Shown one piece after another: positions 47,162 to 59,306 of a stretch of DNA of 64,000 nt (positions are counted from its first letter, which is position 1; the number at the start of each line of letters is the position of its first letter). This stretch comes from Muricea muricata (lineage: Eukaryota; Cnidaria; Anthozoa; Malacalcyonacea; Plexauridae), in assembly GCA_963855995.1 (NCBI GenBank), contig OY979720.1, positions 17,318,430 through 17,382,429 on the forward strand. The letters are read 5' to 3'. Under the pieces are notes generated by a model. It worked only from the letters and a program-made list of their open reading frames with translations, searched no databases and had not been told where the DNA came from. A program made the position numbers and the translations under genes.

Positions 47162-50100
47162 TTACTGTAAAATGCAAAATGAACTTTTTTGTTGAGTCGA
47201 AGGTCTTGCAGGAATCTCGTTGTTGGCATATTGGACTACGCCAGCCTTGAGTACTTGCTGAAATGATGTTAAGGATTCAATACCAAACAATACATTAGAG
47301 CGATTACAAATCCTACACAATAGACACTGACATTATATAATAAAAAGAACAAATAAATTATTAACTCAGTTTATTAACATCGTTTTTAGCAGATTTGATC
47401 ATTTTTGGGTTGTTTTTGTTCTTCAGTCCAATGACTTAGTAAAGGCACCCAAGTTTTGATTATACGAGATTTGTTCCAAATGGGGGTGCAACATCGAAAT
47501 CCTTGACAGCCCTGATTCATTTTTTCTTATTCCGAAATTGAGAGGTTTGCAAAAGGATACGGTCGTTTTTTCCAGTTCGTTTTTCGTCAATCTAATTCCC
47601 AGAACATCTGCAGCAACTTTCTGGAAACAAAGTCTCACCTAGAAAGAATTATGACAGAGTTGATGTGGGGTGTAAGAAAGTAATTTTGAATTAATTGTAC
47701 GAGCACTGGATTTGTTAATTCACTCAGTTGTTCGTAATACCTTGAATTTCCATTATGAAATATTTGTATGATGTGAAATGTGCATAAACTCAATACTGAT
47801 AAATACAGCATTTTCTACCTGATCTCCAGATTTTGCTGACAAACAATGACTACAAAGAATAAGTTCAAAATAATTATCACGTTACAGTCTTCATTGAGAG
47901 ACCTGAGACAAACGCAGGGCTGTAAGCTGTTGCTGGGAGTTGGAATTTTTCAGATGATGACGTTCACTCAGAGGAGATTGTACGGTTTTGTTATGAAACG
48001 GTTAAAAGTTAAAAAGGCCAGCCTTATATCCTACCCTCTCATAGGTCATGGCTTTATAGGATACCCTAAAGGTCGAAATGTCGAGAGAGCACTGGGTTTC
48101 TCACTCACTGGGACTGTATCTACCTCACCAAATTTAGCTAAAGAGGGAGCGCGTAGCGCGACAATCATTACTCGCCCTTCGGGCTCACGCTTTAGCTAAA
48201 TTTGGTGAAGTAGATACAGTCCCAGTGAGTGAGAAACCCATGCTCTCTCGATATTTCGACCTTTAGAGTATCCTATAAAGCCATGACCCTCTCTCATAGC
48301 TAACCTTGTCATCCCATGATCCTGTGCAAACTTCGCATGCCGTTCCTGCTTCACAACACGCATATGTTCTAGATCACCTGAAAACATGTCATAAGAGTCA
48401 AAAGAAATTGTATATAATACAGATGCTTAAAGATCAGGTTCACAAATTACTGCTTTCTAAAAAGTATTTATATTTATTTCACAAGTTTGAATGAGCAATG
48501 CAAAACAAAACTTATCAGAAGAAAAATAGGAAATGAGTAGTGCTCTCTTTGACAAACCTTTGTTAGCAACGAGGGCAAAGCTTGGCAATGTATTGGGTTC
48601 TTTTCCCTTGAAACTACTTCTAACTGTCTCCCACCAGTCTTCAAGATTATCAAACGTGCTCTGGTTTGTTATATCGTAAACAAACAGAATAGCCTGCAAA
48701 AGGAGAGAGGTACAGTTGTAAATAACCCATTTATAGCATTCATATACACACAACCCCTTTACCTCACCATTCAACTGAATGTTACAGCTATGTGCCTTCA
48801 AGCACAAAGCGCAAACATTTTCGCGAGTTTTTACGTTTGTACCGTGACGTTTGCCCTTTGAAACGCAACGTATGCCATTATAATTGTTACTGTTTAAACT
48901 GAGTCCGTTTTGTATCATTTGAAATCCTAAACAAGCTTCTACGCCACGAAATTGGTATGTTTTATGATAAAAAATGTTAAAACGTGCATCAAAACACGAG
49001 ATAACATGACATTCGCAGTTGCAGAACTGTCCGGTTTTGCATCTAAATGGTTTCCGTTTCAAACGGCCAAACGTCACGTTACAAACGTAAAAAAGTCACG
49101 AAAATGTTTGCGCTTTGTGCTTGAAGGCAACATGACCATTCTTTTTGCAATTCGGTGGAGAAACACCTGTGGAATGAGGCCTTTACTCCTACCTGTGCCC
49201 CTGAGAGATAAGTCTCGATCATTTTACCACCAATAGTTTGTCCACCAATATCCCATAGCTGTATGGAGACATTTATATTACCTGCCACGAAGAGTGCATT
49301 TATTGGATAATGGACATCATAAAAAAATCGGTGTTTGTATAGATGTATACACAGTGAAAAAACCTACCTGCTAAAACAATCCTTTTTAAAAAAAAGTCCA
49401 GTCCTATTGTCTGTTTGTATGCTTGCTCAAAGTTTTCTGAAGTATATCTAACTGCTATTGATGTCTAAAAATTAGGAAGGCAGGCAAATTGTAACTTTTA
49501 TACAATCATGGAGTACAGCTATGATGGAAAGATCAGCTACGGGCTGTTCCCAAACCAGCTCTGTCTGTAGAGTGAACCAAAGTACATGGCAAAATGCCAA
49601 CTCAAAGTCAACATATCCATAATAAAATACTTTGATCTTACTGCTTTCCAGCTTGTGGAGTATGGCATTTTCAACAAGATCTAGGCTAACTTGTGATGCT
49701 AAAATGAAGCCAAGTCACTTGCCATAAAATGTATAAATTTGTAGCGGATTGAACTTTTTACACCATGTGATTTGGCCTCATTTCAACATTGCGCATTTTT
49801 GTTACATTGTACAGATCTTAGGTGTGCAAGATATATTCGTTTGTGCAGTTTTTGAGAGTATTCTGTATCAATTAACCGAGTGTTTGACTGTTTGTCAATT
49901 AATACCCAATAGCCCCTTCGTTTTTACCCCTTGTTTGTGACAAGCAAACATGAAAACACCGCTTAACAATGACGCTTCATAGTGTTGTTGTTCTGCATTG
50001 TATATTGCTCCCTCAAGAGCTTTTAACAGCGTTTTCGTGCGAGAGAAAACATTGACAACGCAGGAGTGTATTGTTTTGTATTGAAACCAAGCATTGAAAA

Positions 50101-50910: not shown

Positions 50911-53900
50911 ATGGCGCCTCGAAAAAGACAATCCGACAGGAATGCAAAGCATCAAACTGGCAAAAAGTCCAAGGGTTCTTCTACCAAAAGCAAGTTTAGA
51001 CGAAAGCTGCCTAACACATCAACAATGTTGATCCTAGCTGTGATATTTTTATGCTCCATCGTAGTCGGTTATGCATGGTGGAGACATTATGTACGAAGTC
51101 GGCTGTACACGCCAATTGTGGCACGGCGGATGACGTCAAGGTCTGAGCTGGGTGATATGGGTGATATTAGAAGGTGGGTATTTGTCAATCTTGATTCCAT
51201 TCCCGCCATGAACACACCAGTTTGTCACAAGTTCAGCTTGTATATAAGTATAATGTATATATATAAGTTTAAACTTCTAGTTGAATCCTGTTTGTATCAG
51301 TCACTCTTAGGTAATGTCATGAGTTACATTCATTTACCAATATATTATTAATGCATACATGTAACATGCTGTACATCACTATTGTTCACTGCAGGGTGCC
51401 CCCAAAGGTTGACACCCCCCCCCCCACTCTAAACAGACACACTTGCCTATAAGAATGTGCACTGAAAATGTGCCCTCGATTGTGATGTTTAAAGCAAAAT
51501 GCCGCCGCTGATCTTGTTCATGAACTCAGGTCATATAACAGCTGTGTGTTGCATGAACTGTATCTATATGTAGCATGAAAACTTAACTTGATAAGACCGT
51601 ACTTAGTTTACTAGTAACTGGTCCTAAATTTTAGACCTGAATGAATGTAATATGTGATCTAGTCTTCCCCACATCTCATCATATTAATACTTTCTCCCTG
51701 TGCTGTGGCTTCTCAACACACCTTTTGACCAAAGATAGTTTAAATATATTGTAACTGTCTTATAATTTCCCCAATCCTCAGAACCTTTCCAGTAAATTGT
51801 ATTAGATATATTTTATTTTAGGTTTTGGGGTTCATATCGCTCCAATCTGTACTTTGGCCTTCGGACTCGCAGTCCGAGCTCTCTTATGTTGGGCCTTATG
51901 TGGTTCTCAGGCCAGTCGCACGATGGCAATGTTCACATTAGGCATACATGTGAGCAGAGCGATAGACTGCCGAGATATGGCTGGATGAGACATGATGGAA
52001 TCAATTTTGGAATGCAGGAGATTGTTGATTATGGCTACATTTTGAACACGGATTTTGTTAAGAGAAGTGGTGGCGACCATGGTGGAGACTGGAGTGCTCG
52101 AATCACTGGCCAAGTGGTGGAAAACGTTGGCAAACAAGTTAGTGGTAGCATTCTTTCTTTAAATAATAAAGTTGTCTGGCATTTTAGACAGAGTAAAACA
52201 TAAAGGAAGGCTTGTTAGGTATTGTTACAGTGTGTCTACCATAACTGGGACTACTTTGATACCTCTTATGTATAGTCCACCATGATGGTCGGTGGGGAGG
52301 TTTTCAGTTGCAGCAATAAAAGCGTTCCAAAAATATTTGACTAGTTCATTTCCGCAAGTTTAGCAGTTGCTCTGAGCAATTCCTCCCATGATTCCTCAAA
52401 TTTTGAAAAGTTTGTTGAAATGTTGACGACCTGTTTATTGACCAATCAGAATGATCGCGAATAAGATATAGCATTCTGATTTGTCAATTTACAGGAAGTT
52501 GTGAAAATTTTTAGGAACTTCTTCAAAACTTTGAGGAATTGATCAGAGGAACTGCTAAACTTGAGCAATTAAATATGGTCAATTAAATATTTTCGGAATG
52601 CTTCTATTGGTGCGACTGTTAATATGGAAGCATGCTGCCTAAAGGCTGAGAACAGGCTGTCAGTGTATGACCATTACAGTTTATGATATATAATAGTTGG
52701 TTGGTTGACTTTCAAATTTTATGCTTGGTACTAGTATGCTTATTTTGAAATTGACATTGTTTTTGCGCTATACTGTTTGATTAATGCGTCATTTTGAACG
52801 ATTTTCTATTTTTGTTTATCAGTGTGATTGGTTAGTGGTGTCTACAGTGGCAACAATTATAACAGATGCCCTGTAATGGAACTGAAATATACCCTGTACC
52901 TTCAACAAAGTTAACTAAGCAAGCTAATTCTCAGCAAATTGAAACAATATTTCGCGTTTACCATTGCTGGTTGCTGCATGAAGCATTAAGTTATGATTAC
53001 AATTGAAAGCACAGTCTCGTAGGCAAACTGGCATTGCACAACTAAAGCCTTTCATGCAGGATTTACGATTATTGTTTTACTGTAAAAGGAATTTTATTTT
53101 GATTGTTTTAATATGTTTGCTTAGAATCAACGAGTATCTGTGATGTTCTACGTCATGAACGACGGTCCTGGAAGATTGGTACCGGAGACCCAAAGCGGAA
53201 TACTTTCTTCAGTCTCGGGGAACAGCCCCGAACTAGGAAGTTATAAAATCTCTTTCTTTGACGGCGAAAAAAACCTGTTGTCCACATACTTGAGCACTCA
53301 CTTGGACAAAGTACACAAGGCTAAAGATGTTGTCATGGAAAATTTGCGCCATTTTAAGGTGGGAGAAAAGGGAAAGATGCAGTTACTTGGTTTGTCTGGA
53401 AGAAGAATGAGCGGCGAGAATGAAAACAAGGATGAGAATTTTGTCGTGTTTAGTGGCGTATTTGAACTGCCTTTTACGCTCGAGATTGCTTTTGAATCCG
53501 GTAGCATGAAAGATAGGATAAACCAACTGAAAGGCTCGGTCTTCCAAGAGAATCTCATGAAATACAGCGACTACTTTGAGAAGAAATTCGAACAAAAGTT
53601 CAAACTTCGCAAGAATGGATACAGCACAGATGAGATTTTGTTCGCCCAAGCGACGCTTGGCAACGCTATCGGTGGTATCGGCTACTTTCATGGCAAATCA
53701 CTGGTCATCTCCGATCTTATTAAGGAACCGGTTGATTACTGGGAGAGTTCCCTGTACACGGGCGTTCCATCCAGGTCGTTCTTCCCGAGAGGATTTCTCT
53801 GGGATGAGGGATTCCATCAGCTGCTGATCAGCCAATGGGATAGTACCATCAGCACAGATGTCATTGGATATTGGCTGGACCTGATGAACATTGAAGGTAA

Positions 53901-57214: not shown

Positions 57215-58126
57215 TTAATCATTCATAATGCGTATTTTTTGGCCTCCCCCACTAAAATATACATTTAATCTCCAGTCAGTTTTGGACCTGGGAATATCCA
57301 TGAGAAATTCCTTACCAGTAGCCAAATGTAATGATAGCTTAGATGCATGGCAGTCCAAGACTAACGTAATTGTGTCATCTTGTTTGACCAGATTCCGGGG
57401 GGTTGGTGGATCATTGTCACTGGAAGGAGTAATTATGCCGTCCTTCCATACCACATGATGGTTTTTCCCCATTGCCCATCCGTAGGATCCAGGCCATTTA
57501 AATGAAGCATTGATTTTTTGCTGCGCAATGCCTCCTGTTGCTATGCCACAGAACATGGATTTTATATTATTGAAAGACTCAAACCTCAACTTAATGCGCG
57601 TTTCTCCCCGGCTGTAAAGATTGTTACCAAGAGCATATGTGAAACCTACACCTGGGCCAGTAACTGCAACTTGCCCGCTTTCTTGGAGAGTGACACCTTC
57701 GCTGTGCATATTAAATTTCTCTCTTACCACAGTCCCGCCATCAGAGTGCGCCACTAATTCATCACTTAAACCCAGATACTTAACAAGAATATTGAATTCT
57801 GTCTTCTGGTCTTCAGGAACGTTGGGCAATGGTGCGGGATCCTCTGGACTCGAAATTTTCTTCACGCGAAGATAATTCAGAATAACACTGAAATGTTGAG
57901 GGTTAAAATCAAGAAAGACGGCGCCATCTTGGTCACGCTGTACCGAATCTTCCCAGCGTCCTCTGAACATGGAAGCCAACAAGGAACCTTCTACTTGACA
58001 CAGTGTAGATCTTGTCGTTGTCATTTTAAGTCCACCGATGTTAAGATGTATTATATCATCGTCACGAACTGAAACTGTCGCCATTCTTTCCTTCTCTGTA
58101 TTGTAAGCTTCAACTTCCGCTTTCAT
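57215..58126 (-). CDS. BTB/T1 (KCTD-like) plus SPRY-like protein, single exon
   Basis: The ORF encodes 303 aa. Residues about 22-120 form a potassium-channel tetramerisation-type BTB domain (DDDIIHLNIGGLKMTTTRST, EGSLLASMFRGRWED, AVFLDFNPQHFSVILNYLR). Residues about 150-303 resemble a SPRY/concanavalin-like domain (SMFCGIATGG, KWPGSYGWAMGKNHHVVWKDG, TITLVLDCHASKLSL). The first 20 residues look like the end of a coiled coil. Such BTB-SPRY proteins may act as substrate adaptors for cullin ligases, which is inference. An in-frame TAG precedes the ATG, but a splice acceptor (GGTAG) also lies there, so an upstream exon cannot be excluded. No ortholog name is assigned. Confidence 0.82.
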   Translation of the reverse strand: MKAEVEAYNTEKERMATVSVRDDDIIHLNIGGLKMTTTRSTLCQVEGSLLASMFRGRWEDSVQRDQDGAVFLDFNPQHFSVILNYLRVKKISSPEDPAPLPNVPEDQKTEFNILVKYLGLSDELVAHSDGGTVVREKFNMHSEGVTLQESGQVAVTGPGVGFTYALGNNLYSRGETRIKLRFESFNNIKSMFCGIATGGIAQQKINASFKWPGSYGWAMGKNHHVVWKDGIITPSSDNDPPTPRNLVKQDDTITLVLDCHASKLSLHLATGKEFLMDIPRSKTDWRLNVYFSGGGQKIRIMND

Positions 58127-58160
58127 TCTTTTGAGGATTAACTACCTCACCTTCACCGTC

Positions 58161-58675
58161 CTCACGGGCGTTCTTTGTGGGTGACGTCAATATTTTTGGC
58201 ATGCGGTTGTTCATACAAATTCGTTATTTCTTCGTAAATAATCGTAACGTGTTCGTATTGAGACTATTCTCACTCACTGGGACTGTATCTACTTCACCAA
58301 ATTTAGCTAAAGAGGGAGCGCGTAGCGCGACAATGGACAATCATTACTCGCCCTTCGGGCTCGCGCTTTTGCTAACTTTGGTGAAGTAGATACAGTCCCA
58401 GTGAGTGAGAATAGACTTAAATATAATACCTTTTGCTAGTAAAGTTTAATATACCAAAACAGTACGTTTACGTCTAAGTCCACTGTGACATATTTGCTAC
58501 TTTGCTAGTGATATGAGTATGGGGATACACAAAACACGAGGGTACCCATATCACTGTGACACCGTTTTGCAATCCCAATACGAACACGCTACGACTATTT
58601 ACGAAGAAATAACGAATTTGTATGAACAACCGCATGCCAAAAATATTGACGTTACCCACAAAGAACGCCTGTGAG
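58161..58675. mobile_element. Fold-back element, copy 2, with 100-bp outer arms
   Basis: The outer arms (58161-58260 and 58576-58675) are about 93% identical inverted repeats containing GACGTCAATATTTTTGGCATG and CGTTATTTCTTCGTAAATA. Inside the left edge sits a core at 58264-58414 that matches the RAB28 intron core: CACTCACTGGGACTGTATCTAC ends, TTTAGCTAAAGAGGGAGCGCG and TCGCCCTTCGGGCTC centre. A 161-bp segment (58415-58575) separates the core from the right arm and has its own small inverted repeat. The outer arms share nothing with those of copy 1. Confidence 0.85.
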
Positions 58676-58679
58676 ATAG

Positions 58680-59306
58680 TCAATCCCTTTCCCCTCGCTC
58701 GTTCTCGATAATATCGTTGAATTCCTGCTTGAATCTCGCGACCATTTCGTCAAATCTTGCCAATAACTCGCTGCTCATTTTCTCAGGCTGTAATTGCACT
58801 ATTTCGTAAAGAACGTCAATCCAGTTGAAGGAACCACTGCAGTCCGAAGCTCGTCTTCCTGATAAAATCAGTGTAGTTCCAGGAAAATAATATTGTGAAA
58901 TCTATGCATATCATATTACGTGTTTGATCCAATGATCATTATGGCGATCGTATCAGATGCGCAGTACGGGTATCCCCTTACACTTTACCGAGCATAAGCC
59001 TAATACGTATCTGATTGATTGACGGACACATCGATTTCGACCAATGGGAATTTTGCGTTGTGTCCAACGCGTATTTCATTTCTTTGTGTGTTATCTGCAG
59101 TCCCTCGTCTCCTCAACTTCTTTAATTTGCTTTAGAGACTTGCAGTCTGATATTTTGGATATTTTGCTCAAAATATTAATGTCTCAAATCTCAATCGATT
59201 TTTTCCTGTCGAGCATTAACTTACCTAGCAACCTGGCTATATCAGTCGTGGGTTTAGAAATCTTATGATTGAAGTGCGCAGTGGTGATTTCCTGTCCGTC
59301 ACTTAA
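58680..59306 (-). CDS. Two coding-like exons of an unrecognised gene (3' end)
   Basis: Exon 59306-59225 ends in a strong donor (CTAG followed by GTAAGT). Exon 58858-58680 follows an acceptor (TTTTATCAG). The frame joins in phase: ...KPTTDIARLLG then RRASDCSGSFNWIDVLYEIV, continuing as a Glu-rich helical tail (SSELLARFDEMVARFKQEF) to a TGA at 58682-58680. I do not recognise the protein. It may be the last part of a minus-strand gene starting near 59.6 kb, where a 45-codon ORF starts at 59598. It could also be former 5' exons of the BTB-SPRY gene, whose N-terminal coiled coil it would suit, now cut off by the fold-back element. No start codon is fixed. Confidence 0.45.

Follow-up and report, generated by a model that had tools for sequence, protein, structure and literature searches.

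The 64-kb stretch of Muricea muricata DNA analysed here (the window) contains, in an intron of RAB28, a long fold-back whose inner core recurs elsewhere in the window in quite different surroundings, raising the question of where the inverted sequence around the core comes from. An earlier note regarded this outer palindrome, taken to span 48034..48299, as specific to the locus, and proposed that the element either targets pre-existing hairpins or copies its flank in inverted form upon insertion.

The fold-back itself is real. A near-perfect palindrome occupies 48044-48288, with 54-bp arms flanking a second palindrome (in the window copy, 48044-48098 and 48234-48288 are 91% complementary), and DNA folding of this segment gave -122.2 kcal/mol, whereas 200 shuffled versions averaged -26.7 ± 3.9 (z -24.6). 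Its assignment to RAB28 also holds, with both neighbouring exons matching the Rab-28 structure 2hxs: for the minus-strand exon beside the fold-back this was the best of 28 matches (E 3.8e-7), and for the other exon flanking the same intron it was the sole match (E 0.0029). The inversion is, however, shorter than first proposed, ending at 48044 and 48288; the outermost 10 bases on each side form a direct repeat (CCCTCTCATA and CTCTCTCATA, 9/10 matching), and the splice donor GT, read from the bases at 48304-48303, lies 4 bases past the right-hand copy. As previously recognised, the core is nearly repeated at 58264-58414 (the match to the first copy spans 58267-58411 at 92%), and the sequence around this second core is unrelated to that around the first, the arms being different. 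The features of the two loci are:

48034..48043, no strand: left target-site duplication, CCCTCTCATA, 9/10 match to 48289-48298
48044..48288, + strand: complete 245-bp palindromic MITE of family F1, ends GGTCATGGC and GCCATGACC, with 40/40 scored copies running end to end
48044..48097, + strand: left arm of F1 (the outer arm of the earlier note); the 54-bp arms of the consensus are perfectly complementary
48098..48235, + strand: common core, 138 bp, TTCTCACTCACTGGG...CCCAGTGAGTGAGAA, 137/138 between the F1 and F2 consensus sequences, with sharp edges and recurring in other families
48236..48288, + strand: right arm of F1, 1 base shorter than the consensus, delimited from the palindrome arms and by comparison with the consensus
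48289..48298, no strand: right target-site duplication, CTCTCTCATA, 9/10 match to the left duplication
58160..58687, + strand: second MITE, of family F2, containing the second core; 34/40 scored genome places cover at least query 42-568
58264..58415, + strand: core copy inside F2, 92% to the first core copy

Family F1

A search of the 453-Mb genome from which the window derives, using 48034-48299 as the query, produced 1337 first-look candidates; 40 were scored, and all of these were taken with about 200 bp of flank, one of them being the window copy. Every one matches across the whole 245 bp, core and arms together, with an identity of 95-98% apart from the self-match, and their 246-bp consensus has two 54-bp arms that are perfectly complementary. 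The arms are thus specific to the family rather than to the locus and, because they are common to all 40 scored copies, form part of one element.

The flanks lead to the same view of the RAB28 locus. A 10-bp target-site duplication (at least 9/10 matching at exactly 10 bp) borders 34/40 copies, a result never approached in 500 re-pairings of left and right flanks (mean 0.0, maximum 0), and no inverted similarity between the host flanks was found in 36/40. The remaining six copies comprise one with an 11-base repeat (L017), two with imperfect repeats (L019 and L020), one with none (L032), and two, discussed below, that have no 10-bp duplication (L038 and L040). With direct 10-bp repeats at its ends and arms present in 40/40 copies, the RAB28 fold-back does not owe its arms to host flank inverted at insertion, and that proposal is rejected for this locus. 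Copies differ from the consensus by 1.1% on average, a divergence that is biased low because the scored copies are the best matches to the query.

F1 combines small size and terminal inverted repeats (TIRs) with a duplication whose length stays constant from one unrelated site to the next and many homogeneous, dispersed copies, all characteristic of MITEs. Mutator-like elements (MULEs) are described as having 8-11-bp target-site duplications and long TIRs (PMC6446971), and F1 (10 bp) and F2 (9 bp) resemble them in both respects. Judged on that anatomy, 48044-48288 is an ordinary MULE-type MITE. Seven further F1 copies (L129-L134 and L140) have identical flanks and an identical 10-bp duplication (CTGGTTTTTT); from these sequences they are taken as a single F1 insertion that later spread inside a larger repeat.

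Core-less palindromes and a probable composite origin

When the two F1 arms were joined and used as a query against the same genome, 962 candidates were obtained and 40 scored; at 13 of these the two arms lie within 91-111 bp of sequence that lacks the core. The consensus loop of these palindromes is GGGTTAGGGTCCC or its complement. Across the 13 places the mean distance from their consensus is 9.2%, more than in F1, and in a scan across many end positions a direct repeat of 9-10 of 10 bases abuts the ends of four copies, and none abuts those of the other nine. The arms of F1 therefore also form a palindromic MITE by themselves, of greater divergence and here designated F0, and F1 is best read as a composite because these older core-less palindromes carry its arms. 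The simplest order of events would place F0 first, followed by entry of the core into its loop, and then the F1 burst. F0 could instead represent old deletion products of core-bearing elements rather than ancestors, but no trace of the core ends was seen in the F0 loop.

Taken together, F1 is very probably a palindromic MITE of 245/246 bp, its 54-bp arms and 10-bp duplication placing it with the non-autonomous DNA transposons that MULE transposases mobilise, and its origin would be composite. An older, core-less F0 would have been present first; the core would then have entered the F0 loop, replacing the short loop to give F1; the composite would have spread by ordinary cut-and-paste transposition via its outer ends; and one copy would have landed in the RAB28 intron, duplicating 10 bp.

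The core in other families

The composite reading is favoured by the second core, which lies in a MITE with other ends. In the window copy of F2 only about 5 bp adjoining the core are inverted, and the long arms (58161-58263 and 58573-58675, about 103 bp) lie further out and are unrelated to those of F1. A search with 58120-58720 against the same genome returned 1445 candidates, of which 40 were scored, 34 covering at least query 42-568. The F2 consensus is 531 bp long, with TIRs of about 115 bp and ends GGGATTGAC and GTCAATCCC, and 29 aligned copies lie on average 2.7% from it. Both ends were found in 26 copies from 30 fetched loci, and a 9-bp duplication (at least 8/9) borders 16 of these; the window copy (L049) has no recognisable 9-bp duplication, its left end being degraded in the last few bases. 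F2 thus differs from F1 in its ends and in its 9-bp duplication, yet the two consensus cores are identical at 137/138 positions, and the local alignment between them stops at the core edges.

Further families were met with two search patterns that excluded the sequences usually found next to the core edge in F1 and F2. These gave 275 and 428 exact genome matches, in overlapping sets that count core ends rather than elements, and 62 loci (L079-L140), partly picked for unusual neighbours, were inspected as a pattern-chosen sample rather than a census. Families F3 and F3b are longer elements that have the ends of F1 with longer arms, and duplications that mostly match at 9-10 of 10 bases. The F4 group has ends GGTGAAGGC, and its member L090 is 348 bp long with 8 of 9 duplication bases matching, ends and duplication being taken from this one copy. 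A single copy, L093, is a 462-bp palindrome with ends ACATGCAGC and a duplication of 7 of 8. Two elements (L111 and L118) contain only half a core, with a 9-bp duplication, and two others combine one F1-type with one F3-type arm, L086 having a perfect 10-bp duplication and L127 none. The length of arm held in common outward from the core also varies, being 84 bp between F2 and L093 and about 150 between F2 and L128.

This sample contains 37 distinct full cores, 13 with inverted flanks and 24 without, and 71/74 core ends belong to ten flank types that had been named beforehand from earlier comparisons, one of the ten having been defined from L124 itself. On this sequence evidence, a whole clan of MITE families has the core as its interior, with ends that differ between families. 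Three of the elements (L128, L093 and L138) are palindromes centred on the core, with the inner flank of F2 on both sides, and F2 resembles a core-centred palindrome of this kind after a deletion in one arm.

Two of the half-core elements (L118 and L095) also hold, by eye, a stretch resembling the A and B boxes of a tRNA (TTAGCTCAGT...GGTTCGAGCCC); ARAGORN found no tRNA in either locus and, over eight half-core loci, gave matches in L111 only, three in number and outside the element.

Palindrome centres and alternative origins

Four of the 40 F1 copies do show inverted similarity between their host flanks. In L013 and L041 this is short and off-centre. In L038, an outer palindrome with 82-bp arms surrounds F1, there is no 10-bp duplication, and a 9-base direct repeat with one mismatch can be seen by eye around the outer palindrome. 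In L040, the outer arms measure 87 bp and start two bases off on one side, their inner 66 bp are perfect, and the 10-bp duplication is again absent. These two copies (2/40) count against the preferred reading of F1, as plain transposition does not explain elements that lie in inverted flanks with no duplication. Palindrome centres with 40-bp arms number two in the 64-kb window, one being the F1 fold-back itself, and one in 151,800 bases of flank; by our own arithmetic, leaving out the fold-back and allowing ±2 bp, about 0.002 F1 copies in 40 would be expected at such a centre, against the two observed, which were noticed after the fact. Because of this disparity, insertion at, or copying around, palindrome centres may have occurred.

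Hairpin targeting or inverted copying, the pair of mechanisms suggested at the outset, thus fares differently from place to place. At RAB28 both fail by the tests that the note itself set, given non-inverted host flanks in most F1 copies, arms in 40/40 copies and duplications in 34/40; among the 37 full cores, 24 have no inverted flanks. Elsewhere, the diverged core-less palindromes fit a core that entered a pre-existing hairpin, and L038 and L040 sit at palindrome centres far more often than the 0.002 expected.

It is possible, if somewhat improbable, that the palindromic MITEs of the clan are preferentially incorporated, without duplication, at the centres of other palindromes, for example when a hairpin tip breaks and an excised MITE is used in its repair, such that the core in F0 would give F1, and F1 in further palindromes would give L038 and L040. 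This concerns the origin of the elements and is compatible with the composite transposon favoured above. It would account for the two F1 copies at palindrome centres with no 10-bp duplication, such centres being rare, and for the existence of core-less F0 palindromes, and it has a parallel in two insertions reported close to the middle of a palindrome of 180 bp at human Xq27.1 (PMC11947168). Set against this, the clear cases are two only and were recognised in retrospect, and the other sets examined are less suggestive. Among 26 F1/F3-type elements in L079-L140, seven of which represent the single insertion that spread within a larger repeat, inverted similarity between the flanks is seen in three, lying off-centre in L094 and L112 and, in L121, forming a palindrome around a perfect 10-bp duplication, as in plain transposition; in the 26 F2 copies there is one weak, off-centre inverted flank. 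An extension of this idea, which we consider doubtful, is that palindromes grow outward like Russian dolls, a hairpin MITE joining a palindrome centre without duplication and the composite then transposing by its new outer ends. If so, MITE families would acquire new ends around a single persisting ancestral core, and if palindrome centres really attract such elements, this target preference would be relevant to genome stability.

A second alternative, which appears unlikely, is that the hairpin core causes repair or replication to fold back and so to produce an inverted copy of the adjacent arm; this would found palindromic families and occasionally invert host flank. Fold-back inversions mediated by single-stranded hairpins have been described in yeast (PMC7467729), and the inner 66 bp of flank at L040 are perfectly inverted. 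In addition, F1 joins the core at the same base on both sides; in the F4 group the same block beside the core is lacking from both arms (L090, L136 and L139; in L114 from one arm only); and in L093 both arms match F2 for 84 bp and then diverge from it together. Such matching junctions on the two arms are easier to account for if one arm served as template for the other than if the same event took place twice. The 40 F1 copies, however, contain 89 pairs mutated in one arm and 0 mutated in both, so arm copying has not proceeded at a noticeable rate since the F1 burst, and ongoing arm conversion is rejected; direct duplications in 34/40 copies and the lack of inverted flanks in 36/40 likewise speak against inverted copying.

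It also seems improbable that the core is an independently transposing MITE with a short duplication of its own (TA or AT), inserted into several other MITEs. Its edges are constant across many contexts, some of which read TA|core|TA (F2 and part of the F4 group) or AT|core|AT (F3), but F1 has no TA or AT duplication at the core, and none of the 37 distinct full cores lies clearly in unique DNA on both sides, a result that, coming from a pattern-chosen sample, only weakens this reading. In L124/L125, a TA microsatellite adjoins one side of the core and the other side is a stretch seen only in these two loci; because their flank type is confined to them, they could be one lone core insertion, subsequently duplicated. 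Lastly, a chance hairpin or an assembly artefact is ruled out by the folding energy (z -24.6) and by the 40 scored full-length copies at different places.

Relation to known elements

The closest precedent for the composite transposon proposed here is provided by the CMITE and CMITE-IN elements of Acropora corals, in which several MITE families have a common interior that is more conserved than their ends (PMC2872659). CMITEs are about 100 bp long, with TTAA duplications of the piggyBac type, and CMITE-IN arose as a new element when a CMITE inserted into another repeat (PMC2872659). F1 and F2 share this organisation, in that their cores are 137/138 identical and the alignment stops at the core edges. 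They differ from the elements described there in having duplications of 10 and 9 bp rather than TTAA, in that the common part is a 138-bp palindrome, and in that F1 is palindromic from end to end. The origin of the CMITEs' conserved interior was left open in that study (PMC2872659). Here the order of events is testable by a full census, because the core survives in differently ended families alongside older core-less arms and chimeric arm combinations.

The Tm1 Mutator/Foldback family of root-knot nematodes is presented as a single family with composite ends (PMC3169594). It resembles the present elements in its fold-back ends, its mostly 9-bp duplications, its MITE-like members whose TIRs enclose inverted sequence, and its nested elements (PMC3169594); it differs, as far as that account describes it, in that here one core is common to families with different ends. 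The human Xq27.1 palindrome is similar in that it twice took up foreign DNA close to its centre, but these were chromosomal insertions of 58 and about 169 kb with duplications of 14 and 13 bp, and not transposons (PMC11947168).

Across the window and 153 loci, the published 60-bp internal consensus of the CMITEs gave two weak partial matches, both outside F1 and F2; these lie at 52167-52198 of the window (84%) and at 454-491 of L047 (79%), with an E of 0.001. Two core strings were not found in a text search of the literature, and a 39-base core string had no exact match in viral_contigs or genome_contigs, whose virus and prokaryote records say little about an animal genome. Near the start of the window, positions 200-1900 are occupied by a dense array of long, mutually inverted repeats with arms of up to 240 bp.
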